From a virus, in IMG/VR virus record IMGVR_UViG_3300028392_000284, positions 1 through 24,051 of that record: a stretch of 24,051 bases of DNA; one strand, written 5' to 3'. The notes below the pieces were generated by a model, which saw nothing but the letters and a program-made list of their open reading frames with translations, was not told the DNA's origin and made no database searches. Of the stretch, positions 1,391 through 18,522 are shown piece by piece. Within the stretch, counting starts at the first letter, position 1, and each line of letters begins with the position of its first letter. A program made the translations under genes and the position numbers.

Positions 1391-1404
1391 GAATCCTGAG
1401 ATTC
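1391..1404 (-). promoter_or_regulatory. Small hairpin overlapping the scaffold ribosome binding site
   Basis: Read on the minus strand this is GAATC-TCAG-GATTC, a perfect 5-bp stem with a 4-base loop, ending four bases before the scaffold ATG. The only Shine-Dalgarno-like sequence (AGGA) lies partly in the loop and partly in the 3' arm. It could modulate scaffold translation, but a 5-bp stem is weak and may be chance. Confidence 0.25.
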
Positions 1405-1442
1405 CCCGGTGAGCCGCGCCGGTACGGTTATCTTACATCAAA

Positions 1443-1766: not shown

Positions 1767-2170
1767 GGCGCTACTCCAATAAATCCGTAGATTGTGTATT
1801 GGTCGCTGCCGCTAACTGTTGCGGAAGGCAATGCGTATGTCCCACTTCGGTTGTACGCGCCAAGACATCCTCCAGCGGCACTAGCGCCAAATGCAGCGTT
1901 CCAGTAAGTTTGAACAGTGTTGGTTCCACCATCGCCTTGAGTCTTGACCATTTTGATGTCGTAATTGAGTCCGTTATTGGCGTCAAGTTGAAAGTTTAAG
2001 GCTTTTGACAATGCCGAAGCAGTAATGTTTGAACAATCTACACTACGCCCTGCGGTCAAATCAGACACAGCAACTTTTACTGTTGCGCTTGATTGAACAA
2101 TGGGTAGAACCTCTGTGCCAGCAAGCGGAGTGGTTGCGCTAGTAAGCGCGGAAATCTTTTTATCTGCCAT
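1763..2170 (-). CDS. Short tail-fibre-like protein (135 aa)
   Basis: The N-terminus, MADKKISALTSATTPLAGTE followed by VLPIVQSSATVKVAVSDLTAGR, is a pattern I know from phage fibre and base proteins where it precedes a receptor-binding or trimerising region. The remainder (residues about 45-135) is rich in Gly, Ala, Ser, Thr and Asn with alternating hydrophobic residues, as in a small beta-sandwich, and ends YTIYGFIGVAP. There is no signal peptide or transmembrane helix. A clear AAAGGAG site lies before the ATG at 2168-2170. It is followed directly by the 107-aa gene through an ATGA overlap. It is probably a virion tip or accessory adhesin, but no ligand can be named. Confidence 0.62.
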   Translation of the reverse strand: MADKKISALTSATTPLAGTEVLPIVQSSATVKVAVSDLTAGRSVDCSNITASALSKALNFQLDANNGLNYDIKMVKTQGDGGTNTVQTYWNAAFGASAAGGCLGAYNRSGTYALPSATVSGSDQYTIYGFIGVAP

Positions 2171-2191
2171 GCTGACTCCTTTAAGACTTAG

Positions 2192-2485
2192 TTAGCAATT
2201 TTCAGCACCAGAAAACTCTGGCAATGTTTTTAAATGCTCGTAAACTTGAGCAATAAAGTTTGACGCGCCAGCTTCAACAGAAACAGGAACTTGGTACTGC
2301 TGAAAAAGGTTTTTATCGCCACCTGTAAAACTTACGATTGCGTTTACTTCATTTTTTGTGCCATTAACAGACACAACCTTTATGTAAGCCGGAAAAGATA
2401 CGGATCGTGTCCCTTCTTCAATATTGCCCATTGTTGTTTGAACAACAACTTTTCCTTCAAGGGACATAATTTTTCGCAATGCCAT
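2192..2485 (-). CDS. Hypothetical phage protein (97 aa)
   Basis: A 97-residue protein of unrecognised family. It begins MALRKIMSLEGKVVVQTTMG and has alternating hydrophobic and polar residues in the first 60 positions (VVVQTTM, AYIKVVSV, VNAIVSF), suggesting a small beta-rich fold, then a helix near the C-terminus (FIAQVYEHLKTLPEF). The single cysteine is the last residue. An AAAGGAA site precedes the ATG at 2483-2485, 16 bp after the tailspike stop region, so it is co-transcribed with the tailspike. A role as tailspike accessory or chaperone is possible from position only. Confidence 0.62.
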   Translation of the reverse strand: MALRKIMSLEGKVVVQTTMGNIEEGTRSVSFPAYIKVVSVNGTKNEVNAIVSFTGGDKNLFQQYQVPVSVEAGASNFIAQVYEHLKTLPEFSGAENC

Positions 2486-2500
2486 TGCAATTCCTTTTAA

Positions 2501-4309
2501 TTAATAACTTGGATACCATTTTACGCCATCATAGTGCAGCGTCATGGCTTGACCAACAACAGCAGTTGATGCTTTTCCAATGTTTCCAGCGGTTGTCAAA
2601 GTGAAAGCCCCATCGGGAATAATTGTTACGCTACCCCGAAATGAGGTTAATGGAACATTAATTGTTGCAATAGCTGCCGTGCCAGAAACGTGAAATATTT
2701 GCTGAGAACTTTCAATCGAAATTGTTGAAGCAGACGCAATTGCCGTTGTGGTTGCCGATGATGTGTTGTGTAATGTAGTATTTAGAACTATTGCGCCAGC
2801 ACCGTTTAAATTGACAACTTTAGTGTTTACAAAACGAACAATGGCGTTAGACACTTGACCAGCACCAACATCGGCTGCGCTGTCACTTGCTATTTTATAA
2901 GGAGTCCAATTTTTTATTGCACAATTTACAAAATTGAAAATTACGGGCAATGTTGAATTGCCTTGAATCATAGTGCTGCCAGAATAACTCCAAACATTAT
3001 TACCACGATATGGCGGGCAATTATCTAAAGTAACCATTGCAATGCCGCCATCACCCGCGCCTGAGTCAATCACAAACATATTGGCGGCATCTGATGCCAT
3101 GTAAAAATTGCAGATATTTTTTAGCTTAATTTCGCCCTGAACATAGAAGTTGGCACAGGCAATTTCAATTGTTGTGCCGATCATGTTAATGTCTTTGCCT
3201 TCAACACCATATCCAAGTTGTGATGTTGTTTTTAAGACTTCTCCACCCAAAACAACAAGCTGCCCGACTACGTTTTGGATTGATCTTGCCGCAGTTTGCC
3301 AAGTGGTGGCGTTGTATCCTGTCTGAGAAGTCCACTCATAAGGGTTGCAATCCAGTTGAGGTGCAACAAGTGTTATAAAACCATTAGATTGATTACCAAC
3401 AAACGCTTTTTGAGCGCCACGGCATTTAAACCCATAAACAGCATTTTCAGATTGGGCCGCGTTTACAGATGCAGTTCCAATCTCTTGCCCAAATATAAGC
3501 CCAACAAGGCAATATGAAACGGCCATGCCGTATACGTTATTGAACTGTGCTGGCGCTGCATTGCTCACACTATACCAACGGATGGCGCACGCATAATTTT
3601 TAAAATCTGCGTTGACGTTGACGTTGTACAGTTTTAACTCTCGACCAGTAATGCCTAAAACAAATGTGGCCCCTGCGCTTGAAAATGATCGTGTTCCAAC
3701 AAGACCATACCCATTAAAATCAATAGTTTGACCAATTGAACTAATTGTTACCGCATCAACAGAATAACTTTTTGAAAACTTGATTGATTTTCCGCTATCA
3801 AAAGCTGCTTGAACTTTAAGTTGGTCTGTTGCGCCAGCAAAATCTTCAACGTCCCAAAAATCGCGCATTTTGTCTTGTGCTGATCTTGCGACAACACCAG
3901 AGCCGCTTTGAACAAAACCGATCCAGTCTGAACCGTCGTTGTCTGCAAGATCTTGGACTGTTCCAACTTGGCCCTTAAAACCCGTGAACGCAACATTTGC
4001 GGCATTTTGTGAGTTAATGCCTGAGATATTGTCGTAGGTGGCAATTAGGACATTATTGGCGTCTTCCAACACAAACTTGTACGACACGCCATTAGTTAAC
4101 CAAATTTCACCGCCACCTGGAACACGCCCAGCAGCATCCAAAATAATAGGATTAGTACGGGCAACATTCCCCGCGTTAGTGGTGTAAGAGGCAACCGGCG
4201 TAGTTGTACCGGCAAGATAGGTGTACAACTTGCCGCCTGACAAGATGACACCATTGTTGTCAAAGAATTGAGCCGCTGCGCCGCCCACGGGAGAGAGATT
4301 GACGGCCAT
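2501..4309 (-). CDS. Tailspike-like protein with P22-type head-binding N-terminus and beta-helix body (602 aa)
   Basis: Residues 1 to about 110 carry the pattern of tailspike head-binding domains: a small beta sandwich with FFDNNGVILSGGKLYTYLAG, a run of NPIILDAAGRV and a terminal strand before YDNISGIN. P22 tailspike has the comparable QPLIINAAGKIV in the same place. Residues about 170-480 have the irregular, Asn- and Gly-rich strand pattern of a right-handed parallel beta-helix (for example KNYACAIRWYS and CNFYMASDAANM). The final 60 residues (GSVTIIPDGAFTLTTAGN to WYPSY) resemble the closing domain of many phage fibres. Such proteins bind, and often cleave, surface polysaccharide. No catalytic Asp/Glu pair can be assigned by eye. 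The gene is noticeably A+T-richer than coat and portal, as expected for an exchanged adhesin. Confidence 0.75.
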   Translation of the reverse strand: MAVNLSPVGGAAAQFFDNNGVILSGGKLYTYLAGTTTPVASYTTNAGNVARTNPIILDAAGRVPGGGEIWLTNGVSYKFVLEDANNVLIATYDNISGINSQNAANVAFTGFKGQVGTVQDLADNDGSDWIGFVQSGSGVVARSAQDKMRDFWDVEDFAGATDQLKVQAAFDSGKSIKFSKSYSVDAVTISSIGQTIDFNGYGLVGTRSFSSAGATFVLGITGRELKLYNVNVNADFKNYACAIRWYSVSNAAPAQFNNVYGMAVSYCLVGLIFGQEIGTASVNAAQSENAVYGFKCRGAQKAFVGNQSNGFITLVAPQLDCNPYEWTSQTGYNATTWQTAARSIQNVVGQLVVLGGEVLKTTSQLGYGVEGKDINMIGTTIEIACANFYVQGEIKLKNICNFYMASDAANMFVIDSGAGDGGIAMVTLDNCPPYRGNNVWSYSGSTMIQGNSTLPVIFNFVNCAIKNWTPYKIASDSAADVGAGQVSNAIVRFVNTKVVNLNGAGAIVLNTTLHNTSSATTTAIASASTISIESSQQIFHVSGTAAIATINVPLTSFRGSVTIIPDGAFTLTTAGNIGKASTAVVGQAMTLHYDGVKWYPSY

Positions 4310-4317
4310 TTTATTTC

Positions 4318-4806
4318 CTACGCAGTAAGTGCAGCAACTTTATCTTGAAACGCTTTGATACGAGCGTCCAAGGCGGCAGTCTTGGCTTTCAAATCAGCCT
4401 GTTGGGTGTCAATCTCAACCTGGGCCGCAGTCTGAGAAACCTCACGATCTGTTACAACTTTCTCGCGCAACTCAACCGCTGTCTCACGGTCTACCGCAGC
4501 AGCAAGCGCAGCTTTAGCCTGGGCGTTCAGATCTTTGGCTTTGGATTTTGCCTCGACCAGTTCCTGCTTTGCCGCTGCGCGGTCAGCCGTCGCGTCAACC
4601 CTGATGGCGTATGCTTCTGCGTTAGCAGATTCCAGTTCTTGCCTAGCGCGTTCCCTGTCGGTTACCGCATCTTGGGCGGCAGACAAAGCACCTTGGCGAA
4701 TAGCCAGTTCGTCACGCAACGCGGCCATGTTAGCCAGATCAATTGGAAACTGCTTGGTAAAATAATCAACGTAGTTCACAGCAGCGGAGTCGTTAGAGAC
4801 TTGCAT
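4318..4806 (-). CDS. Coiled-coil protein, probable virion or tail component (162 aa)
   Basis: The start is set at the ATG at 4804-4806 because it has a GAGG site 6 bases upstream and lies just after the previous stop; a longer reading frame would overlap the 101-aa gene by nearly 200 bp with unlikely composition. After MQVSNDSAAVNYVDYFTKQF the protein is almost entirely heptad-like Ala/Glu/Lys/Arg/Gln helix (about residues 30-160, for instance DRERARQELESANAEAYA), predicting a long parallel coiled coil. No catalytic motif is seen. It lies between a 101-aa small protein and the tailspike, so it may be a trimeric stalk, connector or assembly factor. The family is not recognised beyond the coiled coil. 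Confidence 0.7.
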   Translation of the reverse strand: MQVSNDSAAVNYVDYFTKQFPIDLANMAALRDELAIRQGALSAAQDAVTDRERARQELESANAEAYAIRVDATADRAAAKQELVEAKSKAKDLNAQAKAALAAAVDRETAVELREKVVTDREVSQTAAQVEIDTQQADLKAKTAALDARIKAFQDKVAALTA

Positions 4807-4813
4807 TTCAACC

Positions 4814-5119
4814 TCAAGAATAATAGGTAATGTTGAGTTTGGCGCTGGCAGTCTGTTCAATGAACTGGATCTGAGACAGATCGCCGTCATACTGCAACGT
4901 AACACCAGCGGCCAACGGCATTCCAACGCTCGCGGTAGGGGCAACGCCATCGTCGCGCCAACGCACTGCTTGCGTCTCGGGCGTAATGATCGCAATCCGA
5001 GGAGAGCCAATCAATCCGCTTATATCGCGGGGCGGCACGGTCAGTTTGGTAGCAGAACTCAGACTTGTGATCTGCTGGTACCCCATTACAGAGGTAATCG
5101 CCTTGAGGTTAATAGCCAT
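4814..5119 (-). CDS. Small phage structural-type protein (101 aa)
   Basis: The protein begins MAINLKAITSVMGYQQITSL and contains the stretch VRWRDDGVAPTASVGMPLAA followed by LQYDGDLSQIQFIEQTASAKLN. This pattern of an Arg-Trp-Arg-Asp-Asp-Gly core followed by a beta-rich end recurs in small phage virion-associated proteins, in my memory usually annotated hypothetical. There is no signal peptide and no membrane segment. It has the strongest ribosome site of this region (AAGGAG, 7 bases before the ATG at 5117-5119), located inside the last codons of the upstream 38-aa gene, which it overlaps by one base (TAATG). High expression suggests a structural role, but this is inference. Confidence 0.68.
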   Translation of the reverse strand: MAINLKAITSVMGYQQITSLSSATKLTVPPRDISGLIGSPRIAIITPETQAVRWRDDGVAPTASVGMPLAAGVTLQYDGDLSQIQFIEQTASAKLNITYYS

Positions 5120-5235
5120 TAGAATCTCCTTCTTTCGGTAAATGACCGAAGTTTAATCAACAATTGTTCTGCGCCAGTGACAACAGACTGAAAAAAATCT
5201 CCAGCAAAAAAAGCACCGCCAAAAAATGAGTTCAT
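5119..5235 (-). CDS. Tiny Phe/Gly-rich phage protein (38 aa)
   Basis: This 38-codon gene reads MNSFFGGAFFAGDFFQSVVT then GAEQLLIKLRSFTERRRF. Its ATG (5233-5235) overlaps the stop of the 138-aa gene as ATGA, and its stop overlaps the ATG of the 101-aa gene as TAATG, filling the gap between the two exactly. The first 15 residues consist of FF doublets separated by Gly/Ala (FFGGAFFAGDFF); the C-terminus is basic. Short phage proteins with FFGG-type openings occur beside tail genes. No function is known to me; membrane-surface association or a role as a small virion component are possible. Exact fit in the overlap chain is the main evidence that it is real. Confidence 0.66.
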   Translation of the reverse strand: MNSFFGGAFFAGDFFQSVVTGAEQLLIKLRSFTERRRF

Positions 5236-5648
5236 GTCGGCCAAATGATTTTAAACGGGTCATCTTGCGTAGTTATATCACGAAGTGCCTGTCGGTAAGT
5301 GGCCCATTTTGCCTTGTCTACCGGAGAATCTTCTAACTGTGTCCAGTCCGTATCTTTGAGCATCTGGTTACGTTGGCTGCGGATCACAACCCACTGGGTA
5401 TCAACCCGTGATTGAAGCTCTTCAACAGTCAGCGGCTCAACGTCAACCAAGCAGCACATCCCGTCATACAGATGCGGGATAGAAGATACCAGCTTTTCTG
5501 TTGCGTGGTCGTAGGGTTTCCACACAGTGATGACGTAGTAGCCCTGTTCTGCAATCCAATCTAAAGATGGGCCACGGTCGCCAAACGATGTGTTGGGGAA
5601 CCACTCTGTGTGGTCCTTGATGATAAGTTCTGAGTTGGCAAGCTGCAT
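5232..5648 (-). CDS. Tail-assembly-chaperone-type (Phage_tail_APC-like) protein (138 aa)
   Basis: The C-terminal half (about residues 85-138) has the signature of the tail assembly chaperone family PF16778 as I know it: an Arg-x-Arg-Asn-x-x-Leu-x-x-Thr-Asp-Trp motif (RSQRNQMLKDTDWTQLEDSP), then KWATYRQALRDIT and a final Trp-Pro (KIIWPT). Residues 1-80 form a separate small domain with FPNTSFGDRGPSLDWIAEQG. Proteins with this tail usually sit next to fibre or lectin genes and are thought to aid their folding or attachment. It starts 2 bp after the LamG lectin gene (stop at 5651), so that lectin is the natural client. The ATG is at 5646-5648; SD-like bases (AACGAGG) lie just upstream. Confidence 0.7.
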   Translation of the reverse strand: MQLANSELIIKDHTEWFPNTSFGDRGPSLDWIAEQGYYVITVWKPYDHATEKLVSSIPHLYDGMCCLVDVEPLTVEELQSRVDTQWVVIRSQRNQMLKDTDWTQLEDSPVDKAKWATYRQALRDITTQDDPFKIIWPT

Positions 5649-5650
5649 GG

Positions 5651-7681
5651 TTACCTCGTTGGGAACGCGGCTGTTGGTACAGAGAAGCTAGCAGTATACC
5701 TAGCAATCCCTTTTGTAATTCTGGTGTCTTGTATGTAACCGTTAAAATAATTTCCAGCCGCTTGTGAAGTTTGGTAACCAATTAACAGCGGTTTGCCGCC
5801 ATCGCTCATAGCTGTTACTTGAGCGGTAGACGTAACTTGAGTACCATTAAAAAACACCTTAATAGTAGAGCCAGTTCTAACCATTGCCACATGGTTCCAA
5901 ACATTTAGGGTTACAGAGGTGCTTGCTCCGTAGTTTGTTTCGGTAGGTGACAACCCATTTCCATTGCCAAGAACTGCTACCAATTGACCAGCAGAACTAA
6001 CTGCAAGCCCGTACTGAGAATAAGATGCGTTAAAAACACCGTCTTTGTTAAGTATTTGTTGGTTACTTGCGGTCAGCGTAGTGCAATAAAACCACGTTTC
6101 AATTGTAAAATCGCCAGAAACAAGATTCAACTGGGGGCCAGAAAGAATACTCAAGTAATCCCCGGTCCCATCAAACTTCATGCTTGTTGGGGGCCATTTT
6201 GCTACTGTAATGCTAGCTTGGGCATCACCAGCCGTGGTTGCATTGTTCTGCACCGCAGCGTCGTAGATTCCCGCGTTGGTGAAGTTGGTCAGGAGGCTGG
6301 TGTTGGTTATTGCTGTGACTGGTGCGGTGGGCGGGGTAAAGTTGGCAGTGTAGACTGCTGTGCCTTTGACAATTCTAGAGTTGGAAATGTAGCCATTAAA
6401 AACGTAAGTAGCGGGTTGCCCTGTTTGATAGCCAATCAACAACGGTTTTCCACCATCGCTCATCGCAGTTACCTGCGCTGTAGAAGTAACCTGTGCCCCA
6501 TTAAAAAAAACTTTAATGGTTGAGCCTGTGCGAACCAGCGCAACATGATTCCAAGTATTTAACGGCACGGTAGTATTATTCCCGTAATCCGTAAATGTTG
6601 GGCTTACCCCGTTGCCGTTCCCAAGAGACGCAACCAATTTTCCGGCAGAAGTTATACCTAACGAATACTGAGAATAAGACGTACCAAAAGTTCCATCTTT
6701 GTTAATTATTTGCTGTTCTGTTGCCGATAGTGCCGTGCAATAAAACCAAGTTTCAATTGTAAAATCGCCAGAAACAAGATTTAAGGCTACGTTATAAGCA
6801 ATACTTAAATAATCCGTACTACCATTAAAATACCCACTCCCCCCATACGCCGCAGCGGTGTACGAAGCAGTCGGGGAAAACGGTTGGAATGCTTGTGTTC
6901 GGGGGGAACCAGAAACAGTTAATGTTTTTGGACTTGAAGAATTGTCTTTTACCCTGTTGTCTTGTAAGGTTAGTAATAAAGTATTTGCAGAAGATGTTAA
7001 TGGAGAAGTTGGAACAGAAAAAGTGCTTCCACTATATATGTTGGTATTTGAAACCTTAAAATTAGATAGGTACCCAGTAATACCATTTGTGTATGACCCG
7101 GAATCTAACCATCTTCCAATTTGCAAGGAGCCGCTAATGGCATTGGGGACGCTGCCAGTAGCTTTTTGAACCCCATTTACATATACGGTTACAGTAGAAC
7201 CGCTTCTAACCAATGCTACATGATTCCAAGAATTTAAAACTAATGGGGCGCCGCCGCTAATTGGGGTTCCCGCATCAGCAAAAACATTAATAGTTGGGCC
7301 ACCTGCATTATATGTGCAGGCTAAAGAGTTTGGATTTTGCGTGTCATCTATACCAAAAAAATTACTATTTGCAGAAGCAGTTGGAAAAAACCAAAACTCT
7401 ATTGTAAAATTTGCAGATAAAGATGTGGTTCCACCAACACTAACATATTGAGTAGTTCCACTAAAAAAGTTACTCCAATACCCATTAGGCCAATACGGAG
7501 TCACAGAACCCTGCGTTGGGGTTCCGTTACGGGTGATGGTGAAGTTGTTTGTCGAAGAATCTAAAAACGTATTGTTCTGCTGCCCGTTTGTGCTGGTTGT
7601 TTCCAGTAACAAAGGAACATACGGAAAGTATGGGTCTGTAGCAACCGCCGCTACTCGGCCTGATTTAGATGCAGCAAACAT
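5651..7681 (-). CDS. Virion lectin with three tandem LamG/concanavalin-A-like domains (676 aa)
   Basis: Three consecutive LamG-type beta-sandwich units can be traced. Unit 1 covers about residues 75-230 (FTIEFWFFP, SWNHVALVRSGSTVTVYVNG), unit 2 about 283-450 and unit 3 about 501-671, the last two each with GDFTIETWFYCT, WNHVA.VRTGSTIKVFFNG and a long shared MSDGGKPLLIGYQT. The repeated WNHVA.VR-GST-.V..NG motif is the hallmark of LamG_3 (PF13385) domains, which bind sugars or stabilise fibres. The N-terminus (FPYVPLLLETTSTNGQQNN) is a common opening in phage lectins. There is no signal peptide, fitting a virion protein made in the cytoplasm. The start overlaps the preceding fibre stop (TAATG). 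Units 2 and 3 are near-identical in protein but clearly diverged in DNA. Ligand unknown. Confidence 0.82.
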   Translation of the reverse strand: MFAASKSGRVAAVATDPYFPYVPLLLETTSTNGQQNNTFLDSSTNNFTITRNGTPTQGSVTPYWPNGYWSNFFSGTTQYVSVGGTTSLSANFTIEFWFFPTASANSNFFGIDDTQNPNSLACTYNAGGPTINVFADAGTPISGGAPLVLNSWNHVALVRSGSTVTVYVNGVQKATGSVPNAISGSLQIGRWLDSGSYTNGITGYLSNFKVSNTNIYSGSTFSVPTSPLTSSANTLLLTLQDNRVKDNSSSPKTLTVSGSPRTQAFQPFSPTASYTAAAYGGSGYFNGSTDYLSIAYNVALNLVSGDFTIETWFYCTALSATEQQIINKDGTFGTSYSQYSLGITSAGKLVASLGNGNGVSPTFTDYGNNTTVPLNTWNHVALVRTGSTIKVFFNGAQVTSTAQVTAMSDGGKPLLIGYQTGQPATYVFNGYISNSRIVKGTAVYTANFTPPTAPVTAITNTSLLTNFTNAGIYDAAVQNNATTAGDAQASITVAKWPPTSMKFDGTGDYLSILSGPQLNLVSGDFTIETWFYCTTLTASNQQILNKDGVFNASYSQYGLAVSSAGQLVAVLGNGNGLSPTETNYGASTSVTLNVWNHVAMVRTGSTIKVFFNGTQVTSTAQVTAMSDGGKPLLIGYQTSQAAGNYFNGYIQDTRITKGIARYTASFSVPTAAFPTR
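5669..6781 (-). repeat. Duplicated LamG domain: copies at 6323-6781 and 5669-6127
   Basis: Residues 301-453 and 519-671 of the lectin align without large gaps and share long identical runs such as NLVSGDFTIETWFYCT, VRTGSTIKVFFNG and VTSTAQVTAMSDGGKPLLIG. At DNA level the copies differ at many third codon positions (compare 5771-5855 with 6440-6524), so this is an older duplication kept by selection on the protein rather than a recent tandem event. Confidence 0.8.
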
Positions 7682-8652
7682 TATGTGTAGTTTTGCCCAA
7701 TGGTGGTGCCATACCAGCTAGTACCGTCAGAGAAAAACGAATAGATGTCCTTCTTGCTGGCGGTGCTAGTAATCGTCGGCGCAGTAGCTGAAGGCCATGA
7801 TACTGTTGACCAAGTAACCGTCCGGCTTCCCGTACCATCTTGCGCCAAAATAATAATGAATGATTTGCCAGCCACCGCTGTGGGCATTGTGATCGTTGCG
7901 TTACCAGTCAACGTCAAAATCTGAACAGTACCATTGGTCAAAGCAACCGTAATCGCAGTACCCGTGTTGGCCGTATACGCCGTTTCAACGTAGTTTGTTA
8001 CCGTGGGGTTGGTCAGCGACGGAGTGTTATTAAAGACCAATAGACCAGAGCCAGTCTCATCAGTCATTGCCGAAATTAAGTTGGCACTTGAAGGTGTTCC
8101 CAAGAATGTAAGAACGCCCGTTCCTGTTGTGGTCGTTGCAGGAGCCGCGCCAGCACCTCCACCAATAACCAACGCATTAGCCGCCAACGCAGCCGAGGAT
8201 GCCCAAGCACTACTGCTTGAAAAATAAGGAACACCGCCGCTAGTGCCAGCGACCGTCAAAGCCAGCGTTCCAGATCCCGTAATTGGCGAACCGGCAACCG
8301 AAACAATACCGCCAGTAAATGTCTGCGCTACCGAAGAAACAGCACCAGCCTGAACAAGCAGATTCCAGTACGTTGTATTGGTTGGCAGGTTTCCAATTGA
8401 AGCCAGAATACAGATGTAACTTGAACTGTTGTACAGAACAATGTCATTTACATAGTATTGCGTTGCGCCGGAATACGTTCCTTTAGACGCAACCCCAAGA
8501 GAATAGCCAAGACTATTCCAAGCCGTTGAGCCTGTACCAATCTTGAATCTGCCGGTATCAGTCTCAGCACCCATCTCGCCAACAGCAAGGGTGGGGTTGG
8601 CGCTAGTCCAAGCCGAAGCAGTTCCGTTTCTAATTTGAATCTGAACGGCCAT
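7681..8652 (-). CDS. Tail fibre with Mtd-type N-terminal domain (323 aa)
   Basis: Residues 1-50 (MAVQIQIRNGTASAWTSANP, then LAVGEMGAETDTGRFKIGTGSTAW) match the small beta-prism unit at the N-terminus of major tropism determinant-like fibres (Mtd_N, PF18454), which trimerises and attaches fibres. Residues about 57-100 (YSGATQYYVNDIVLYNSSSY and TYWNLL) resemble a carbohydrate-binding module of the CBM5/12 kind. The rest is Gly/Ser/Thr-rich fibre with GSPITGSGTLALTVAG, a motif shared with the 320-aa fibre upstream, and a C-terminal strand region ending SFFSDGTSWYGTTIGQNYT. Start and stop overlap both neighbours by one base (TAATG). There is no reverse transcriptase nearby, so nothing suggests a diversity-generating element despite the Mtd-like domain. 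Confidence 0.76.
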   Translation of the reverse strand: MAVQIQIRNGTASAWTSANPTLAVGEMGAETDTGRFKIGTGSTAWNSLGYSLGVASKGTYSGATQYYVNDIVLYNSSSYICILASIGNLPTNTTYWNLLVQAGAVSSVAQTFTGGIVSVAGSPITGSGTLALTVAGTSGGVPYFSSSSAWASSAALAANALVIGGGAGAAPATTTTGTGVLTFLGTPSSANLISAMTDETGSGLLVFNNTPSLTNPTVTNYVETAYTANTGTAITVALTNGTVQILTLTGNATITMPTAVAGKSFIIILAQDGTGSRTVTWSTVSWPSATAPTITSTASKKDIYSFFSDGTSWYGTTIGQNYT

Positions 8653-9614
8653 TACGGCGTACCTCCATCAATCGCGGTAATCCCGCCATAGTTACTTGTT
8701 GGCGTTCCACCGTCAAGGTTTGGACTGCCGCCGCCTCCACCGCTTTGGGTTACCCAAGACAACGTGCCAGATCCGTTCGTTGATAGCACCTGCGCTGACG
8801 TGCCGTCTACAGCGGGAAGCGTCCAAGTCACATTGCTAGAAACCGTTGCAGGGCCTTTAAACGCTACATAGTTGCTGCTATCCGCATCAGCAAACCGCAA
8901 CGCCCCCTGCGTTCCTAATTGTACGTTAGTGCCATCCCAAGTGAAATTGGCAGAACCACCAAACGAACCCGAGTTATTAAACTGAACCTGCGTGTTTGAA
9001 CCACCGGGAGTGCCACTACCACCAGAATACTGCGGTATGTTAAGCGTATTGCCAACGAACGTGGCAGCGCCAGACGTTCCGCTGGTGGTTAGCGTAATTG
9101 GAGCTTGGTAGTCCGTTCCGGCGGTCGCAGCAGAGAATGCGCTTGTGCCGTTACCTTTGAGAATTCCGGTAAGCGTAGTTGCCCCAGAACCACCATTCGC
9201 AACAGGTAACGCAGTACCAGAATAAGAAATAGCCAACGTCCCAGATGTTGTAATAGGCGAACCAGTAACCGTAAATATTGATGGCGCAGATAACGCCACG
9301 CTGGTTACCGTGCCAGAACCACCGCCACCGCCCGTGTACTGCGGAATATTTAAGACGTTACTGACAAACGTAGCCGCGCCACTTGTACCAGTTGTGGTAA
9401 GCGTTATAGGAGCTTGATAGTCCGTCCCTGCCGTAGCGGCACTAAACGCGCTAGTGCCGTTACCCTTCAAAACACCAGTTAATGTGGTAGCACCAGTGCC
9501 ACCATTTGCAACATCAATCGTGCCAGATAGCGTATGTGCCGCATTCCACGCAGTCGCGCCGGTTGCGCTAAACGAACCGTCTGCTGGCGTTGAATGGTTG
9601 ACAGTTAAAGTCAT
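8652..9614 (-). CDS. Repetitive tail fibre protein (320 aa)
   Basis: A Gly/Thr/Ser/Ala-rich fibre built around two copies of a 62-residue unit (residues 35-96 and 138-199) that starts VANGGTGATTLTG, continues KGNGTSAFSAATAGTDYQAP and ends LNIPQY. This GGTGA..L.G.LKGNG pattern is common in trimeric phage fibres and hosts. Between them stands TVTSVALSAPSIFTVTGSPI; the end (LDGGTPTSNYGGITAIDGGTP) is the usual closing tag of such fibres. No enzymatic domain is present. The ATG overlaps the preceding stop (ATGA) and has no visible Shine-Dalgarno, so its translation is probably coupled. It lies first in the adhesin block, next to portal and the Dps-like gene, which suits a portal-proximal shaft. 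Confidence 0.76.
   Translation of the reverse strand: MTLTVNHSTPADGSFSATGATAWNAAHTLSGTIDVANGGTGATTLTGVLKGNGTSAFSAATAGTDYQAPITLTTTGTSGAATFVSNVLNIPQYTGGGGGSGTVTSVALSAPSIFTVTGSPITTSGTLAISYSGTALPVANGGSGATTLTGILKGNGTSAFSAATAGTDYQAPITLTTSGTSGAATFVGNTLNIPQYSGGSGTPGGSNTQVQFNNSGSFGGSANFTWDGTNVQLGTQGALRFADADSSNYVAFKGPATVSSNVTWTLPAVDGTSAQVLSTNGSGTLSWVTQSGGGGGSPNLDGGTPTSNYGGITAIDGGTP
9018..9512 (-). repeat. Two 186-bp in-frame repeats within the fibre gene (9327-9512 and 9018-9203)
   Basis: These code for the two 62-aa units of the 320-aa fibre. The proteins differ at only a few of 62 positions (for example GGTG/GGSG, TTTGTSG/TTSGTSG, SNVLNI/GNTLNI) while many synonymous bases differ, so the unit is conserved at the protein level. 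Confidence 0.8.
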
Positions 9615-12663: not shown

Positions 12664-14186
12664 TATGCACCCATCCAAGATCCGGCCATTGAGTCACGAT
12701 TCATCGTAATAGTACGAGGCCGTTCAACGTACTCACGGTGCGCTACAGGATAAGCAAAGGTCACCGCCAGCGCGTCGGCTGCGTCAGGTGATGCCAATCC
12801 TCTAGACTTCATTTCTTTCTTGCCTTCCAGAAAGATCGTACCCGCCGAGTTGGGCTTTTTCATCGGCCCAACCAAGTCATCTTTGAGCATCTTGTCTTGC
12901 GGAATGCTGGCGGTTTTTAACCACTCGCGCATCGCGCCCCACATCTCAGCCCGCTTGTTACCCCACATTACGGGGTTTTTGGCTTTCCAACCAAAGTTCA
13001 CCCCTCGCACCTTATACCGTTGCTCTGTTAGCCTGTCAAGTATACCGTAGCCCAAACCGCCTTCGTCGATTACAGTCAGCGTCGGTTTGAATTCGTCAAT
13101 CGCGTCAATGACACGACCAACAATCGACATCGTATCCTCGCCCTTGTACCGCTTGATCGCCACAATGTCGCGCCCGCGTCTGACGACAATAACTGTCGAG
13201 TCCAACCCACCCCTCGCCGGATCGACCCCTATTACTATAGGCGCGGTCTCGTCTTTGTATTTAGGCCGCTTGAATGCGTCCTCGACGATCATCGGCGAGA
13301 TGAACTGATCCTCGCCCGCGCTTGGGAAGTCGCCGTACACCTCTACGCGCGCTTGGATCGAATCCTCGCCGTACTCCGCGATGATCTGCTCGTAGACCTG
13401 CTTGTCCGTCCCCTCGACCGTGCGCGCATCTATCTGGCGTGTCTGCCAGAAATCACGCTTACTATTAAACGTCTCAAAGAAGTACCCGCTGTTACGCCGT
13501 GGGTTGCTAAACGCAAACCAGTACCTGTCTAAAATGTTCTCTGTGAAGAAGCCCGCACCGACTGACCAGATCGCGTCGGCGATACCGCTTGCCTCGTCAA
13601 AGATCAACATCATCCCGTCGTGGTTGTGTACTCCGGCGTAAGCGTCTGGGTTCTCTTCTGACCAGAGCTTGCCTTCCGCTGCCCAGTAGCGCGTACCTTT
13701 TTTGAGATCGCGCTCGACCAGTTCGGTCAGCCATTGTGCCGGTACGATCTTAGTCGCGCTGATCTCCCACCAATGGCTGTTGATAATCATCGCTTGCCAC
13801 TTGGTCAACTCGCCCCAGGTCACCGACCTTAACTGCGCTTCGCTGTTGGCACTAACAATAACCGTCGAGCCGATCCGAGTAGACAGCATCCACAGAATTA
13901 GCCAGCTAACTAACGCAGACTTACCAATACCCCGCCCGCTGGACACCGCCTCGCGTAGCGTGTCCATGTTGACCTTACCCTCGTTGACTTTGATGTGCTT
14001 GGTAATGTCACGCAGTATTTCGCGCTGCCATTTGCGCGGCCCGCTGAACTTAGCTAACGGTGTGTTGGGCTGGCCCCAAGGAAACGCGAACAGTACAAAC
14101 GCTTCAGGATCGTTCGCTATTGCGGGTGACCACAACCGCGTCATCAACGTCTGCTCTTCGGCTGATGTATAGATCGTTTTTTGCAT
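12663..14186 (-). CDS. terL: Terminase large subunit (TerL), ATPase and nuclease (507 aa)
   Basis: The motor that packages DNA into the procapsid. The N-terminal ATPase has Walker A at residues 83-90 (SGRGIGKS), Walker B at 192-198 (MMLIFDE, Asp197/Glu198) and FAFSNP at about 224-229, the coupling motif. The C-terminal RNase H-like nuclease has acidic residues in GVDPARGGLDST (Asp322), VIDEGG (Asp374) and SPDAADAL (Asp468, Asp471). Length is typical. The opening LMTRLWSPAIANDPEAFVLF and AFPWGQPNTPL is one I recognise from P22/T7-type podoviral large subunits. The listed ATG overlaps TerS by 83 bp; a start at Met15 (14142-14144) would shorten the overlap to 41 bp and cannot be excluded since ribosome sites are weak at both. 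Confidence 0.93.
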   Translation of the reverse strand: MQKTIYTSAEEQTLMTRLWSPAIANDPEAFVLFAFPWGQPNTPLAKFSGPRKWQREILRDITKHIKVNEGKVNMDTLREAVSSGRGIGKSALVSWLILWMLSTRIGSTVIVSANSEAQLRSVTWGELTKWQAMIINSHWWEISATKIVPAQWLTELVERDLKKGTRYWAAEGKLWSEENPDAYAGVHNHDGMMLIFDEASGIADAIWSVGAGFFTENILDRYWFAFSNPRRNSGYFFETFNSKRDFWQTRQIDARTVEGTDKQVYEQIIAEYGEDSIQARVEVYGDFPSAGEDQFISPMIVEDAFKRPKYKDETAPIVIGVDPARGGLDSTVIVVRRGRDIVAIKRYKGEDTMSIVGRVIDAIDEFKPTLTVIDEGGLGYGILDRLTEQRYKVRGVNFGWKAKNPVMWGNKRAEMWGAMREWLKTASIPQDKMLKDDLVGPMKKPNSAGTIFLEGKKEMKSRGLASPDAADALAVTFAYPVAHREYVERPRTITMNRDSMAGSWMGA

Positions 14187-14565
14187 TCTCTAACACTCTG
14201 GTTTGCGCGGCTTCTAGCGCCTGTGTGATGCTGATCCGCTGATACACATCAACACTAACTTCTTGTTTGGCCGTCCACTCGTGACGGTGACGCAGGATCT
14301 CTAACGCGGCCTTGGCGTCGCCATTTAACGCCGCGTTATTGAGAACCTGCGAGATCTCACGCTCGTTATCCGCGCGGCCTTTTTGTTCAGCCATTTCCGC
14401 TAACGGATCTAGCTGACACAGTTGCCGATACTCAGCGGGCAGCATACCAGCAGCCAGCGCCAGCGAGTCACCCTTCAGACCTAACTTTGCTGCGTCGTAG
14501 ATCGACTGAAGACGCGCCTCTGTTGCCTGAACATTTCTGACAGTTAGTGGCAAAGATTTGAACAT
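14104..14565 (-). CDS. Probable terminase small subunit (TerS, 153 aa)
   Basis: The protein is mostly helical and begins MFKSLPLTVRNVQATEARLQ, then SIYDAAKLGLKGDSLALAAG MLPAEYRQL, a helix-turn-helix-like stretch of the kind that recognises pac or cos DNA, and continues with a helical oligomerisation region (NNAALNGDAKAALEILRHRH). It comes directly before TerL in the transcript. I set the start at the ATG 14563-14565; an upstream TTG (14602-14604) would give 13 more residues encoded by the TGTAGGCAA-type repeats and looks unlikely. No good ribosome site is visible for either start. P22 TerS is 162 aa, similar. The call rests mainly on position, size and the helix-turn-helix; sequence similarity is not obvious to me. 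Confidence 0.7.
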   Translation of the reverse strand: MFKSLPLTVRNVQATEARLQSIYDAAKLGLKGDSLALAAGMLPAEYRQLCQLDPLAEMAEQKGRADNEREISQVLNNAALNGDAKAALEILRHRHEWTAKQEVSVDVYQRISITQALEAAQTRVLENAKNDLYISRRADVDDAVVVTRNSERS

Positions 14566-14571
14566 GATTCG

Positions 14572-14891
14572 ATTGTAGGCAATGTAGGCAATGTTAGCAA
14601 TCAAAAAAATTTTAAAAAATGTTTGCGGGGGGTGCGTGGACGTGACCGGTCGGCCGTCGGCCCTACCCGGCCCCCCTCAGCCAAACGGCCAAAATGTCAG
14701 CAATTGTCAGCAATGAAATAAAACCCTTTCAATTTGCATAACCAATGTCAGTCATTGTCAGCAATGGTTTTGAATTCTGTTAAAAGCTATAACTAATGTT
14801 AGTAATTGTCAGCAATGCTTTTCAACTCTTATAAAACGTGGAACTTGTGGTTTTTGGCAAAATGTCAGCAATGTAGGCAATGTTAGCAATG
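14572..14891. repeat. Iteron-like array, forward units of TGTCAGCAAT type
   Basis: Five clusters are seen: 14572-14602 (three 9-bp units, TGTAGGCAA, TGTAGGCAA, TGTTAGCAA), 14693-14715, 14744-14766 and 14795-14817 (each 23 bp, two units 11-12 bp apart, e.g. AATGTCAGCAATTGTCAGCA), and 14861-14891 (three units). The three 23-bp blocks start exactly 51 bp apart with 28-bp A+T-rich spacers. Units within a block are about one helical turn apart, as expected of sites bound cooperatively on one face. No coding sense is apparent: the region overlaps the TerS start and has no convincing gene. Confidence 0.72.
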
Positions 14892-14950
14892 GAAAAAAAT
14901 CGGGCTGGCTCAGAACGCGTGGGGGTTTGGCGGCCATTAGCGCGGCCAAA

Positions 14951-15000
14951 TTCCCTATATATAAAAATTGACTTTTGAAACAAATATTAAAAAAGTATTG
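14951..15000. other. A+T-rich core (possible unwinding element or divergent promoter)
   Basis: The stretch from TTCCCTATATATAAAAATTG to AATATTAAAAAAG contains very few G or C in 50 bp and lies between forward repeat units on its left and inverted units on its right. It is a natural place for DNA melting by a replication initiator, or for leftward and rightward promoters. It also contains TTGACT, but no well spaced -10 follows. Confidence 0.4.
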
Positions 15001-15105
15001 CTGACATTGACTAACATCGCCCGAAACCCGCGCCAATATTGACGTTGAGCGTAGGCAACGTTTTTTCTTCGATTGCTGACATTGTGCTGACACGTTGCCT
15101 ACAAC
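14997..15105. repeat. Inverted-orientation units of the same repeat (ATTGCTGACATTG)
   Basis: On the other side of the A+T-rich core the repeat reads in the opposite sense: ATTGCTGACATTGACTAACA at 14997-15016, a degenerate stretch near 15035-15060 with GTAGGCAACG, and ATTGCTGACATTGTGCTGAC followed by ACGTTGCCTACAA at 15072-15104. Unit spacing is 9-11 bp as on the left. Confidence 0.66.
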
Positions 15106-15135
15106 TGTTGGTTGGATATTTGTGTAAAAAGTTTG

Positions 15136-15165
15136 TTGACAGCTACACAGCGCGCGCGGTAATCT
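15136..15165 (+). promoter_or_regulatory. Candidate sigma70-like promoter for the clamp operon
   Basis: A perfect -35 (TTGACA, 15136-15141) is followed after 18 bp by TAATCT (15160-15165), a weak -10 with three consensus matches. The predicted start lies about 45-50 bp upstream of the clamp ATG. A 15-bp palindrome follows just downstream, where a repressor could sit. The weak -10 suggests an activated or regulated promoter. Confidence 0.42.
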
Positions 15166-15175
15166 CTACTCACGG

Positions 15176-15190
15176 CGCGCAAGTTGCGCG
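15176..15190. promoter_or_regulatory. 15-bp palindrome, possible operator
   Basis: CGCGCAAGTTGCGCG is an exact inverted repeat (7-bp arms, one central base) between the candidate promoter and the clamp gene, at roughly +5 to +20 of the predicted transcript. It could be an operator or an RNA hairpin in the leader. There is no U-run after it, so it is not a terminator. Confidence 0.4.
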
Positions 15191-15221
15191 TCGTCACACT
15201 TCACTACACTAAGGGCACACA

Positions 15222-15830
15222 ATGAAAATCAACGTCAAACTCTCAGCGCTCCACGCCGTCGCGCAACTTGCGGCCGACAAGGAAATTCGCTACTACATGG
15301 TCAGCGTTCGCGTTGAGGCGAACTCGAATCAGACAATTTTGACAGCTACTAATGGTACTTGCGTCGGGATGTACCGCGTCGTCGACGTTGAGAACGAAGT
15401 CGACGACAAGATTTCTTTTCTACTACCGCTCGACGTCATCAAAATGCTAAAGCCAGCAAAAAATGGTCTCGACGCGGCCGTGATCGAAACCAATGACGGC
15501 GCGACGGGAACGATCAGCGTAGTCGGAGGCGCGACAGTAGCGTGGGCCGCCGTCGACGGGAGATTTCCCGACATCGCGCGCGTCATCCCTCAACAATGTA
15601 GCGGCGAAGTTGCTCAGTTCGATCCCGCGCTGATTGCCAAATTCGCCGCCGCTAATAAATGTCTGGGATCGAAGGCTAATCTTAAAATTTGGCACAATGG
15701 CGGATCGGCCGCGCCGATCACGCTCAACGATACGAAGTTTTTCGGCGTATTGATGCCGTACCGGGATATGACGGGGTTAACTAGTTACGCCGCGCCGTCG
15801 TGGACGTTTGACGCATTTTCAACACTTTGA
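15222..15830 (+). CDS. Miniature DNA polymerase sliding clamp, DnaN domains II-III equivalent (202 aa)
   Basis: Residues 2-125 align from memory with domain II of E. coli beta clamp: EIRYYMVSVRVE against DVRYYLNGMLFE, ATNGTCVGMYRV against ATDGHRLAVCSM, SFLLPLDVIKML against VIVPRKGVIELM, and DGRFPDIARVIP (112-123) against DGRFPDYRRVLP. Residues 126-202 would be a shortened domain III, with FDPALIAKFAAA for the domain's first helix and FFGVLMPYR (173-181) for the C-terminal AAYVVMPMRL. Domain I is absent: the protein starts where domain II would. E. coli beta has 366 residues. A clamp tethers the polymerase to DNA; with two domains per subunit a ring would need three subunits, as in PCNA and T4 gp45. 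AAGGG lies 7 bases before the ATG. It is the first gene of a rightward operon beside the repeat array. Confidence 0.77.
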   Translation: MKINVKLSALHAVAQLAADKEIRYYMVSVRVEANSNQTILTATNGTCVGMYRVVDVENEVDDKISFLLPLDVIKMLKPAKNGLDAAVIETNDGATGTISVVGGATVAWAAVDGRFPDIARVIPQQCSGEVAQFDPALIAKFAAANKCLGSKANLKIWHNGGSAAPITLNDTKFFGVLMPYRDMTGLTSYAAPSWTFDAFSTL

Positions 15831-15843
15831 AGGGAAGCACACC

Positions 15844-16071
15844 ATGAGTAACTATAACGGCTGGACCAATTACGCAACTTGGCGCGTCAATCTTGAGATG
15901 TTTGACGGCTATGAAGGCACACTCAGCGCCGATACAGCGCGCGAGATCGTCGAGGAGTACATCGAAGGCTCAAGCGTCGAGGGTTTGGCGCGCGACTACG
16001 CTCTTGCGTTTATCTCCGACGTCAACTGGCACGAAATTGCCGCCCACTATCAGGAGGAGGTCGAGGTATGA
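15844..16071 (+). CDS. Small conserved phage protein, DUF7249-like (75 aa)
   Basis: The start at ATG 15844 was chosen because AAGGGAAG stands upstream and the protein then begins MSNYNGWTNYATWRVNLEMF, a pattern (NGWTNYATWRVNLE) that I recall from many small phage proteins, catalogued I believe as DUF7249. A start at 15808 would overlap the clamp gene and add an unrelated sequence. The rest is acidic and helical (ADTAREIVEEYIEG, YALAFISDVNWHEIAAHYQE). The function is unknown. It overlaps the next tiny gene by ATGA, with a very strong AGGAGGAGG ribosome site near its end that serves that next gene. Confidence 0.72.
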   Translation: MSNYNGWTNYATWRVNLEMFDGYEGTLSADTAREIVEEYIEGSSVEGLARDYALAFISDVNWHEIAAHYQEEVEV

Positions 16072-16166
16072 AAATCGAAACACTTGCAACCGGCGCGCTA
16101 ATCGGCTGGATTATCGTAACGAGCGTGATATTGGCCGAAAATATAGCGGCCGCTCTGTGTCGTTAG
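16068..16166 (+). CDS. Tiny single-span membrane peptide (32 aa)
   Basis: The frame reads MKIETLATGALIGWIIVTSV then ILAENIAAALCR. Nearly all of residues 6-30 are hydrophobic, enough for one transmembrane helix. The ATG overlaps the preceding stop (ATGA) and is preceded by AGGAGGAGG, 7 bases away: the strongest ribosome site in the window, supporting expression. It follows a clamp gene and a DUF7249-like gene and precedes the terminator at 16218. It could be a small membrane anchor, a host-takeover peptide or holin-like; no family is recognised. Confidence 0.6.
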   Translation: MKIETLATGALIGWIIVTSVILAENIAAALCR

Positions 16167-16216
16167 TGATTGCGGCGGTACTTGCCGCAATCCTAGTAAT
16201 TATCCTTGACTTATGA
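16157..16216 (+). CDS. Possible second hydrophobic micro-peptide (19 aa)
   Basis: A GTG at 16157 opens a frame reading VSLVIAAVLAAILVIILDL and ending TGA at 16214-16216, just before the terminator. It overlaps the stop of the 32-aa gene by 10 bp in another frame. The peptide is hydrophobic throughout. There is no visible ribosome site, so expression would require reinitiation. Evidence is weak and chance is possible. Confidence 0.25.
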   Translation: MSLVIAAVLAAILVIILDL

Positions 16217-16217
16217 G

Positions 16218-16242
16218 AACGGCCCGCAAGGGCCGTTTCTTA
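16218..16242 (+). terminator. Intrinsic terminator of the clamp operon
   Basis: AACGGCCC-GCAA-GGGCCGTT is a perfect 8-bp stem with a GCAA loop, followed on the plus strand by TCTTATT. It closes the rightward operon and lies immediately before the stop of the leftward primase-helicase gene, so transcripts from both sides converge here. Only the plus-strand side has a T-rich tail. Confidence 0.75.
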
Positions 16243-18522
16243 TTACCGCGCCGCCGTTATCGGCGTGACGTTACCCATCGTAACTTCTGGCTCGACTGCG
16301 CGCCGAAGGTCCGAAGCACTCATTCCAGCATTATCAGGCGCGCAGAAAATGTGCTTTCGAGTAGGTAGAGCGCGCGCCGATAACCGCCCACAATCTATCC
16401 ATCCGGCTTCCTTAAGAGCGTGAAGCAGAGCCGATTGGTATAACTTCACACCAGCGGGAGCGAGCGCGCCCAGAGTGTCGCAAACGCCTTGGAACGGCGA
16501 ACCGATCACACCACGCGCAAACACAGAACGGCGCGCGCGGATCGTCTCAAGTAACCATGACTCCGCACTCGACATTGAATTCTCGACTAGATTCGCCTTG
16601 AATTCAGTCATTGCGGGAGTAGCGGCCGGATTGAACCGGCTAACGTCCCGCGCATATAACCAAGATCCAATCGAGTCGAATCCTCCCGCGTTGAACCAGT
16701 CCCACATCGCGCGGCCGGCCGCCTCGCTCATGCGCGGCGCATGGGACCAAACACAGAACCATCGGCGGTCCTGCGAACCTAGCGAGATCGGGACTAGGTC
16801 ATTCGTAAACGCGAGCACGAAGCCCCGATTTAACATCATATAGGGATGAAGTCCCTTTCGATTGATAGGCAACACATCAGGAGGCGCAGCAATGATCGGC
16901 TTGAGTTTGTTCGCTAACTGTCGGCGATCAGCGGCGTTTGGTTCCTTCAACTCGTTAATCAGCAGGATCTCAGACTCTAATTGATACCCCCATTGGGACG
17001 ATATAGAGTCATTGTCAACGATCCCTAGATTGATCTTACCGTCCCCACAGACCGCCCATATAAACGGTGCCCACATCGTATCCTTACCGCAGCCCTCGTC
17101 GCCCCCATGCAGAATGGCGTGGTTAATCTTGACCTCCGGGTGCTGGACCTTATAGGCCATTGCATCCCATATATGCTCAAGTTCTGACCGCTCTGGGACC
17201 AAACGCGCGCAATGGTCGAGCCATATAGATATATCGTTGACCACGCCAGACACAGAAGGCCGCGCGTTGCGCCACCAATTTCCAAACACCTCACCGTTGC
17301 GCGACACGAGAACCGAATCTCCCGCCGCATAGGTGATCCCGTTTAGGATGCGACCGCCGCAAGCCTGACGATTCTCATCAAACCATAGCGAAGCGCTGAT
17401 CAAGCGCGCGCTCTTGCCCGTCTGGTGCATAGATGTACACATCACGCCGCGATAGGTCGAATCAAACGCGCGCCGCGTGATCTCTCGACGCTCTATAAGA
17501 TCGAAGTAAGCGTCATCCGATTGTATATAAGCGAACCGCTCATGCCAGCCCGACCGCTCGACGCGCCCCAGTTCGCGCGCTTCGACTTGCGCGATCACGG
17601 CCTTGGCGTCATCGGTAAACATCTCCGTAGGCGTCAATTTAGACAATGCGCCATTCACAACCGACGCGAGCAGTTCATCACGTAGGCCATAGGTCCGCTT
17701 GGGACCGCCTTGCTCTTCAACCCATGCTAAGAACCGCGCGGAATCCCATTCGATGCAATGCGAGTGCAGACAGCAATAAGCCCGCGAAGCGGGCATATAA
17801 CGGCCCTCTGGGTTACCGTCGGAGTGTTCCGCACTGTTAGGGCAGATAACGCCCCACCAACCCGCCGGGTTACCTTTTTGTGTGACTTCCTTGCGCTCGA
17901 CAAGCCACGCCAGCACATCATCCGACCCGTCGTCCTTTAGGACGCCTGGACGAAATGTTGTAGTCTCGACCGCGCCGGGGACGACCGATAGAGCGTTGCA
18001 GATCTCTTCAAGACTAAACTCGCGCGAGGGGTTGAATTCAACCAAACGCGCAGCGAAGCGCCCGCGTCCGGGCTTTAGGTTGATCGAGCCGGGGATGCGG
18101 ATGTTACGCACCGGATTGATAGCGCCGGGGTCCGTATAGCCCGCAGCGGCTATAGCCTTGATCGCCGCGCTATAAACTGACTTATGAGGCTGATCGTCTA
18201 GCCGGAATACGTAGCACCATTGAAAGTTATCCTTCGACGTTTCAATAATCCACGTAGGTCTGATCGTAGGCGTCTTAGACTTCGTACCGACGTCATCTAG
18301 AACCAAGCACCACACGTTCTCGCAAAACGCAGCGCCCGCACTGACCCGCTGACCGTCGAACCGCGACTCTATAAACGAGCCAATGTTGACGTACCAAGCG
18401 CCTTCACCGCGCGGCTTGCGAAACGCAGGATAGGCGTAACCGCCCTCGCGCTCGACTTGTTTTGTGAATAGTACAACTTCACCCTCGGGCGCGAGGGCTA
18501 TGATATGATCCACCAGTTCCAT
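16243..18522 (-). CDS. Primase-helicase: primase-like N-terminal half and DUF5906-type SF3-like helicase (759 aa)
   Basis: Residues 1-180 resemble RepB-type/phage primase domains (VWCLVLDDVGTKS near 70-82, TWIIETSKDNFQWCYVFRLD at 90-109, NPVRNIRIPGSINLKPG at 136-152). Residues 227-256 contain a zinc-site pattern (C227, H233, C250/C251, H253/H255, C256). The C-terminal half is a DUF5906/SF3-like ATPase: Walker A GGDEGCGKDT at 473-482, Walker B-like ILLINEL at 519-525, a sensor AFTND at 571-575 and the arginine motif SQDRRWF at 583-589. One polypeptide would therefore prime and unwind DNA ahead of the family A polymerase. A very good AGGAGA site lies 8 bases before the ATG. It is the last gene of the leftward replication operon. 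Catalytic residues of the primase half are not certain. Confidence 0.85.
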   Translation of the reverse strand: MELVDHIIALAPEGEVVLFTKQVEREGGYAYPAFRKPRGEGAWYVNIGSFIESRFDGQRVSAGAAFCENVWCLVLDDVGTKSKTPTIRPTWIIETSKDNFQWCYVFRLDDQPHKSVYSAAIKAIAAAGYTDPGAINPVRNIRIPGSINLKPGRGRFAARLVEFNPSREFSLEEICNALSVVPGAVETTTFRPGVLKDDGSDDVLAWLVERKEVTQKGNPAGWWGVICPNSAEHSDGNPEGRYMPASRAYCCLHSHCIEWDSARFLAWVEEQGGPKRTYGLRDELLASVVNGALSKLTPTEMFTDDAKAVIAQVEARELGRVERSGWHERFAYIQSDDAYFDLIERREITRRAFDSTYRGVMCTSMHQTGKSARLISASLWFDENRQACGGRILNGITYAAGDSVLVSRNGEVFGNWWRNARPSVSGVVNDISIWLDHCARLVPERSELEHIWDAMAYKVQHPEVKINHAILHGGDEGCGKDTMWAPFIWAVCGDGKINLGIVDNDSISSQWGYQLESEILLINELKEPNAADRRQLANKLKPIIAAPPDVLPINRKGLHPYMMLNRGFVLAFTNDLVPISLGSQDRRWFCVWSHAPRMSEAAGRAMWDWFNAGGFDSIGSWLYARDVSRFNPAATPAMTEFKANLVENSMSSAESWLLETIRARRSVFARGVIGSPFQGVCDTLGALAPAGVKLYQSALLHALKEAGWIDCGRLSARALPTRKHIFCAPDNAGMSASDLRRAVEPEVTMGNVTPITAAR

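Follow-up and report, generated by a model that had tools for sequence, protein, structure and literature searches.

Between the leftward packaging genes and the rightward clamp gene of a virus record lies a stretch of clustered short repeats, which raises two questions: what do these repeats serve, and which protein reads them? The window analyzed here comprises all 24,051 bases of an IMG/VR virus record that is probably a fragment, and megablast of it against known phages returned no match. A sequence-only reading of the locus had offered either a replication origin bound by an initiator or a regulatory region shared by divergent operons. The very probable answer is that the array is the phage's replication origin, bound by the phage's own primase-helicase via a C-terminal winged helix, the wing of which would read the variable bases of the repeat unit.

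Layout of the array and its surroundings

The clustering of the units is real: 12 of the 13 matches to TGTNNGCAAT in the window lie inside the array (at 14574–15081), when 1.03 would be expected (sd 1.00) and the maximum seen in 100 shuffles was 4. The features of the array and its neighborhood are as follows (clades A and B being two groups of relatives described in the next section).

14104–14565, minus strand: terS, 92–100% identical across clades A and B
14574–14601, plus strand: cluster 1, three tandem units with a 9-bp period (TGTAGGCAA TGTAGGCAA TGTTAGCAA), adjoining the terS start; kept in clade A, missing in clade B
14693–14715, plus strand: doublet 1, TGTCAGCAAT twice, 10-bp period; the 51-bp step is retained in clade-A relatives
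14744–14766, plus strand: doublet 2, TGTCAGTCAT TGTCAGCAAT, 10-bp period
14795–14817, plus strand: doublet 3, TGTTAGTAAT TGTCAGCAAT, 10-bp period
14863–14890, plus strand: triplet with a 9-bp period, TGTCAGCAA TGTAGGCAA TGTTAGCAA
about 14951–15000, no strand: A+T-rich core (CCCTATATATAAAA...), a probable unwinding element; a similar TATATA-type core occurs in clade B and distant relatives
14997–15017, minus strand: reversed doublet, TGTTAGTCAA TGTCAGCAAT as read on the minus strand
15050–15060, plus strand: degenerate single unit CGTAGGCAACG, a forward copy on the reversed side of the core
15072–15105, minus strand: reversed triplet with an 11-bp period, TGTAGGCAACG TGTCAGCACAA TGTCAGCAAT; clade B likewise has an 11-bp triplet
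15136–15165, plus strand: candidate clamp-gene promoter, TTGACA - 18 - TAATCT, immediately past the array; below the cut-off of the promoter scan
15222–15830, plus strand: sliding-clamp-like gene, within the swapped block
16243–18522, minus strand: primase-helicase, 759 aa, with a RepB_primase-like N-terminus and a DUF5906 helicase; the proposed initiator

Forward clusters with a 9- or 10-bp period are thus followed by the A+T-rich core, the reversed doublet and the reversed 11-bp triplet, the whole occupying the entire gap between the terS start (14565, minus strand) and the clamp gene start (15222, plus strand). The unit is variable within the window, TGTCAGCAAT, TGTAGGCAAT and TGTTAGCAAT being among its variants. 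The three 23-bp double-unit blocks described earlier do start at 14693, 14744 and 14795, exactly 51 bp apart, whereas the claim that the unit is reversed beyond the core holds for the doublet and the triplet and fails for the degenerate forward copy at about 15050. The array was also correctly said to contain no gene between the packaging genes and the clamp gene: a 94-aa minus-strand ORF (14809–15093) is composed of the repeats and was rejected as a gene, no credible gene being left within the array.

To the left of the array, terS, terL and the portal gene are found on the minus strand, terS and terL overlapping by 83 bases (14104–14186). To the right, the sliding-clamp-like gene is followed by a small DUF7249-like gene, beyond which the primase-helicase, a family-A DNA polymerase, a further protein and a DUF2800 exonuclease are encoded on the minus strand. 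The clamp-like gene matches PF02767 (below its cut-off), phrog_947 and a processivity-factor family, its top PHROG being phrog_3007, “RusA-like Holliday junction resolvase”, a name that looks wrong for it.

Exchange of the array block among relatives

The ten closest relatives (clade A, clamp 91–95% identical) all carry the array with the 51-bp doublet step visible, some of their variant units being missed by the exact pattern used; this retention of position and spacing, along with the wing covariation presented below, strongly supports what had been proposed from the window. Extra sequence with small ORFs is inserted between the array and the clamp gene in L009, L012 and L016, the array being intact. 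Eleven more records (clade B, clamp 64–67% identical) are devoid of the TGTNNGCAA array and retain its layout with a different unit sequence: TGTGAGC occurs 4–7 times in about 580 bases and not once in the other 6.5–10 kb, accompanied by TGTACCC and TGTTTGC, 8–11-bp steps, a CCC(T)ATATATA core and the reversed 11-bp triplet. In clade B and distant relatives, too, the TATATA-type core sits between forward and reverse clusters. The clade-B arrays and a few others are degenerate and were recognized partly by position and by eye, word counts having been used for the G+C-rich clade-B arrays, on which a plain EM motif search did not work.

Wherever a clade-B record includes these genes, TerL, PolA and helicase residues 1–315 are 91–99% (mostly 96–99%) identical to those of the window, and TerS 93–100%; for most records of the two clades the TerS figure is 97–99%, despite the replacement of the unit. 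What differs is a single block:

14572–17570, no strand: array, clamp gene, small gene and helicase C-terminal half, swapped as a unit between clades A and B; the right edge is gradual, around helicase residues 300–350

Compared fragment by fragment, the window and G003–G005 share about 90% identity on the flanks of this block and mostly 10–65%, or no alignable sequence, within it; for the clade-A genomes G001 and G002 identity stays mostly near 90% across the block. According to the sequence-only reading, repeats absent or scrambled in close relatives, together with no change in skew, would speak against it. Taken literally, half of this is what clade B displays, yet there a different unit has taken the place of the repeats, with the layout unchanged, and replacement of the unit jointly with the helicase C-terminus is what an initiator/origin pair predicts.

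A second, independent swap separates L213 (unit ATTGGCAAT/ATTGTCAT) from L209 and L210 (TGTAGTCAT, TGTAGGCAAT). Between them, the polymerase, the primase and a large portion of the ATPase region are mostly 94–98% identical and the packaging genes mostly 88–100%, while the identity of the helicase C-terminus drops from 82 to 61% and from 84 to 70%, and from there to terS there is mostly no alignment. In the same comparison L216 and L230, which share the unit, keep mostly 83–96% identity across the C-terminus; a large part of their array region can be aligned as well, the gaps falling in the intervening genes. The best explanation for these patterns, as far as sequence comparison goes, would be that array and wing are passed on together as a single specificity cassette, recombined with breakpoints inside the helicase gene.

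Genomes with a related TerL and a different replication module offer a few controls, which are only suggestive: G012 and G014 (TerL 81–82% identical, without a primase-helicase of the window type) show no array-like repeat peak (scores of 15–18, as against 35–67 in the window, G001, G006, G008 and G009), L053 and L104 (records without the window-type helicase) score 29 and 21, and clade-B G004 itself scores low because its array is degenerate. G014 (L129) has a quite different primase and polymerase, and packaging and replication modules appear to have been exchanged among these phages. TerL is 81–85% identical in L053, L097, L104 and L083, all of them records without the window-type helicase. 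Elsewhere in the window, the tail-fiber region (1400–9500) varies even among genomes that are about 90% identical in their remaining parts.

Helicase wing and unit sequence

The part of the helicase that is exchanged with the array ends in a predicted winged helix, the elements of which are listed below.

16285–16569, minus strand: C-terminal winged-helix domain, residues 652–746, from AlphaFold2 models
16405–16437, minus strand: predicted recognition helix, residues 696–706, QSALLHALKEA, nearly invariant across unit types
16342–16398, minus strand: predicted wing, residues 709–727, with R717 at the hairpin tip; R717 covaries with unit base 2

An AlphaFold2 model of residues 586–759, built from an 80-sequence alignment, has a pLDDT of about 90 in the domain and shows, in order, a helix, a strand, two helices and a two-stranded hairpin; as the strands of the latter span residues 709–716 and 719–727, R717 is placed at the turn, and as the third helix is nearly invariant across unit types, the variation would be carried by the wing and not by the helix. 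The full-length primase-helicase model is poor (mean pLDDT 48) and usable for the C-terminal domain only. Foldseek with this domain gave no significant match (best E 0.11), many of the weak hits being winged helices, RFX5 included, and nothing was found for it by a PDB sequence search or in Pfam.

When near-identical helicases are aligned, their differences concentrate in one strip ahead of KKHI. Among 123 distinct helicase/array pairs, 67 combine Arg717 with TGT units and 54 combine another residue (Ala, Ser, Gly, His or Thr) with non-TGT units of the T(A/T)T type, leaving two discordant pairs, L282 (dominated by an unrelated simple repeat) and L181. The unit class was assigned by a simple rule, the TGT tandem count, with cases that it could not place left out; an earlier rule, under which T(A/T)T matches counted against TGT, was too crude, as rotated and opposite-strand words matched, and was replaced before the fresh-data test. 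On a tree built without the wing, and without L203, L206, L226 and L217 (the records of which end before the array), there are 14 changes of residue 717, as against 16 of the unit label and likewise 16 of the joint label; the two excess label changes match the two discordant records. The observed agreement between residue 717 and unit (98.4%) was reached by none of the 3000 label histories simulated without recombination.

The 717 rule and a 90% threshold were set down ahead of three further scans for new loci, and 72 of the 74 decided cases among these fit the rule, a count drawn from loci phylogenetically linked to the first set and to one another and thus not from independent cases. By residue, Arg was accompanied by TGT units in 30 loci and by another unit in none (one locus being left unclassed), and non-Arg residues by another unit in 42 and by TGT in two (four unclassed). 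KSR wings were paired with TGTGGA/TGTCCA units in each of the 28 fresh loci that have such a wing. One of the two exceptions, L320, has an array 3' of the helicase gene in which the clusters towards terS are TGTGGAC(A/C) and those towards the helicase are TTGGGTCAT, the latter matching the wing of L320 itself; this array looks like a hybrid stemming from an exchange with a breakpoint inside it.

As the clamp and small genes share the exchanged block, linkage alone cannot single out the helicase, which the residue-level scan does. In a scan of C-terminal columns, unit class was predicted best by residue 717, with mutual information of 0.894 where 0.993 is the maximum, and next best by 715, 720 and 711; these four leading columns all fall in the wing, and the remainder of the helicase C-terminus, equally linked to the array, predicts unit class less well. 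Further correspondences are seen at residue 715: Lys pairs with TGTGG(A/G) or the near-palindrome TGTCCA, Met with TGTAGT, TGTTAG or TGTCAG, Tyr with TGTAGG, and Ser, which is the residue of the window, mainly with TGTCAG. Small residues at both 715 and 717 go mainly with ATTGGC/ATTGCC, and Gly717 with TTTGGG/TTTAGG. All of this is as expected if the wing-tip residues read the unit letters and change in step with them.

The scan bears directly on the possibility that array and helicase C-terminus merely co-occur as exchanged neighbors and that the array is really bound by the clamp or by the product of some other intervening gene. The presence of the clamp and small genes in the same block speaks for it, whereas the best unit predictor is a single wing-tip residue, the top four columns lie in the wing, and many array-bearing relatives have no clamp homolog detected at the cut-off used, which together make this possibility very unlikely. 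Less credible still is a packaging site (pac/cos) read by TerS, which the immediately adjoining terS and terL might bring to mind: the unit is replaced while TerS stays constant in most clade A and B records, hence the array is not a TerS-read site, and covariation with the unit is found in the helicase wing instead. As the site sequence does not follow TerS, this candidate was rejected.

A control region, in which the helicase or another regulator from the block would bind the array as an operator of the divergent terS-terL and clamp operons, replication starting elsewhere, is somewhat harder to set aside and yet improbable. The array does lie between divergent operons, a TTGACA-type site past the array is found at the equivalent place on the clamp side in clade B and other relatives, cluster 1 (14572–14601) overlaps a promoter-like terS site (TTGCTA-17-TACAAT, minus strand), and further promoter-like matches fall in doublets. 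These matches, however, number four against 2.0 expected, an excess over chance that is not significant; at least ten units around an A+T-rich core seem excessive for an operator, the array is hundreds of bases away from terS in distant relatives, and the covarying residues belong to a helicase and not to a repressor. Shared regulation may nevertheless be an additional role of the array, and initiator binding at cluster 1 could link replication with packaging-gene expression.

Origin reading and known systems

The initiator-bound origin is consequently the best-supported reading, owing to the comparison of relatives and the helicase/unit covariation, and the best-supported initiator is the primase-helicase at 16243–18522, presumably acting through its predicted C-terminal winged helix. 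Features of such an origin are present at the locus: multiple short repeats flank an A+T-rich element in a non-coding region, a helicase with a predicted C-terminal DNA-binding domain is co-encoded (the array lying 3' of its gene, past the clamp gene), and the match of initiator specificity to the iteron is seen as covariation. The suggested GC-skew check lends the origin reading no support, no extreme or switch being found at the array in the near-complete relatives G001, G004 and G005.

Binding, melting, loading and origin function are steps that we infer, and they might proceed as follows. The 9–10-bp units would be bound by the C-terminal winged helix of the primase-helicase, the nearly invariant recognition helix probably supplying common contacts and the wing (residues of about 711–721, chiefly R717 at the tip) reading the variable bases, with Arg 717 corresponding to G at base 2 (TGT...) and small residues or His to A or T (TAT/TTT...). 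Helicases on the forward and reverse clusters would then lie on either side of the A+T-rich core and melt it, load on both strands, and provide priming and unwinding to the PolA and clamp of the phage.

In iteron plasmid and lambdoid origins, repeated initiator sites lie next to an A+T-rich element. There, a separate initiator recruits the host helicase, whereas binder, helicase and primase are apparently one protein in the window phage (iteron plasmids are reviewed in PMC4980987). A likeness is also offered by the ori/crr of satellite phage P4, where most copies of the annotated type 1 repeats are TGTTCACC (8 bp), tandem steps are 9, 10 or 11 bp, both orientations occur and the alpha gene is followed immediately on its 3' side by the crr copies; the window array similarly has short units, 9/10/11-bp steps and both orientations, and lies 3' of a primase-helicase gene. 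In RFX1, the major groove is reportedly read by the wing. The origin-binding domain of P4 alpha is a winged helix resembling RFX1 (PMC10516667, citing Yeo 2002, Gajiwala 2000), and the modeled domain of the window helicase, with its varying wing, recalls both. Profile comparison of P4 alpha and the window helicase by hhalign, however, detected no homology (E 0.44 and 0.45, probability 0.1), the primase domain of the window helicase is a different one, and P4 has two separate sites, unlike the window phage, for which one array was found.

In SaPI/PICI and SCCmec replicons (Rep, Cch2), the C-terminal domain of the initiator helicase binds iterons 3' of its own gene, and in PICIs two iteron sets flank an A+T-rich region (PMC6092414, PMC7581432). 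These are satellites or chromosomal elements with other units, whereas the window belongs to a podophage with the clamp and other genes between helicase and array. As for exchange, the DNA-binding domain of RepA and the origin covary in PLE satellites of Vibrio cholerae and are exchanged as modules with breakpoints within the initiator gene, for which the nuclease Odn has been proposed as the driver (PMC8263062). The PLE initiator, however, is a RepA_N protein and not a helicase, its iterons are semi-palindromic and of about 30 bp, and two module types are seen there as against about ten unit types in the window family; a PLE-type RepA_N replicon was rejected for the window, the initiator candidate of which is a DUF5906/RepB_primase protein. 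A limited literature search found no report of the origin of this phage family or of a wing code, and no precedent for a code that ties single residues to units over many natural variants.

A broader proposition, towards which we lean with moderate confidence, is that origin specificity resides almost wholly in the wing, the recognition helix being invariant, and that cassette exchange has repeatedly rewritten a compact code, in which Arg 717 stands for G at base 2 and Lys, Met, Tyr or Ser at 715 for the next bases; rivals such as satellites, origin-directed nucleases or competing phages are a plausible source of pressure behind this. How can specificity shift in an initiator and in its origin at once, with no dead intermediate on the way? 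For this question the phages at hand provide natural material: wings that match about ten different unit types, about 14 changes inferred from the tree, and an array that appears to be a hybrid. Given these natural variants of unit and wing, the code would lend itself to tests on a small protein domain with short DNA probes. The parallel with the PLE/Odn arms race (PMC8263062) suggests that origin identity may face diversifying pressure more widely, and a likely origin and initiator can now be assigned to a widespread, little-known podophage family. The host of this family is hinted at by helicase relatives L394–L400, the contigs of which were binned with betaproteobacterial (including Rhodoferax), other proteobacterial, actinobacterial and Mucilaginibacter metagenome assemblies.
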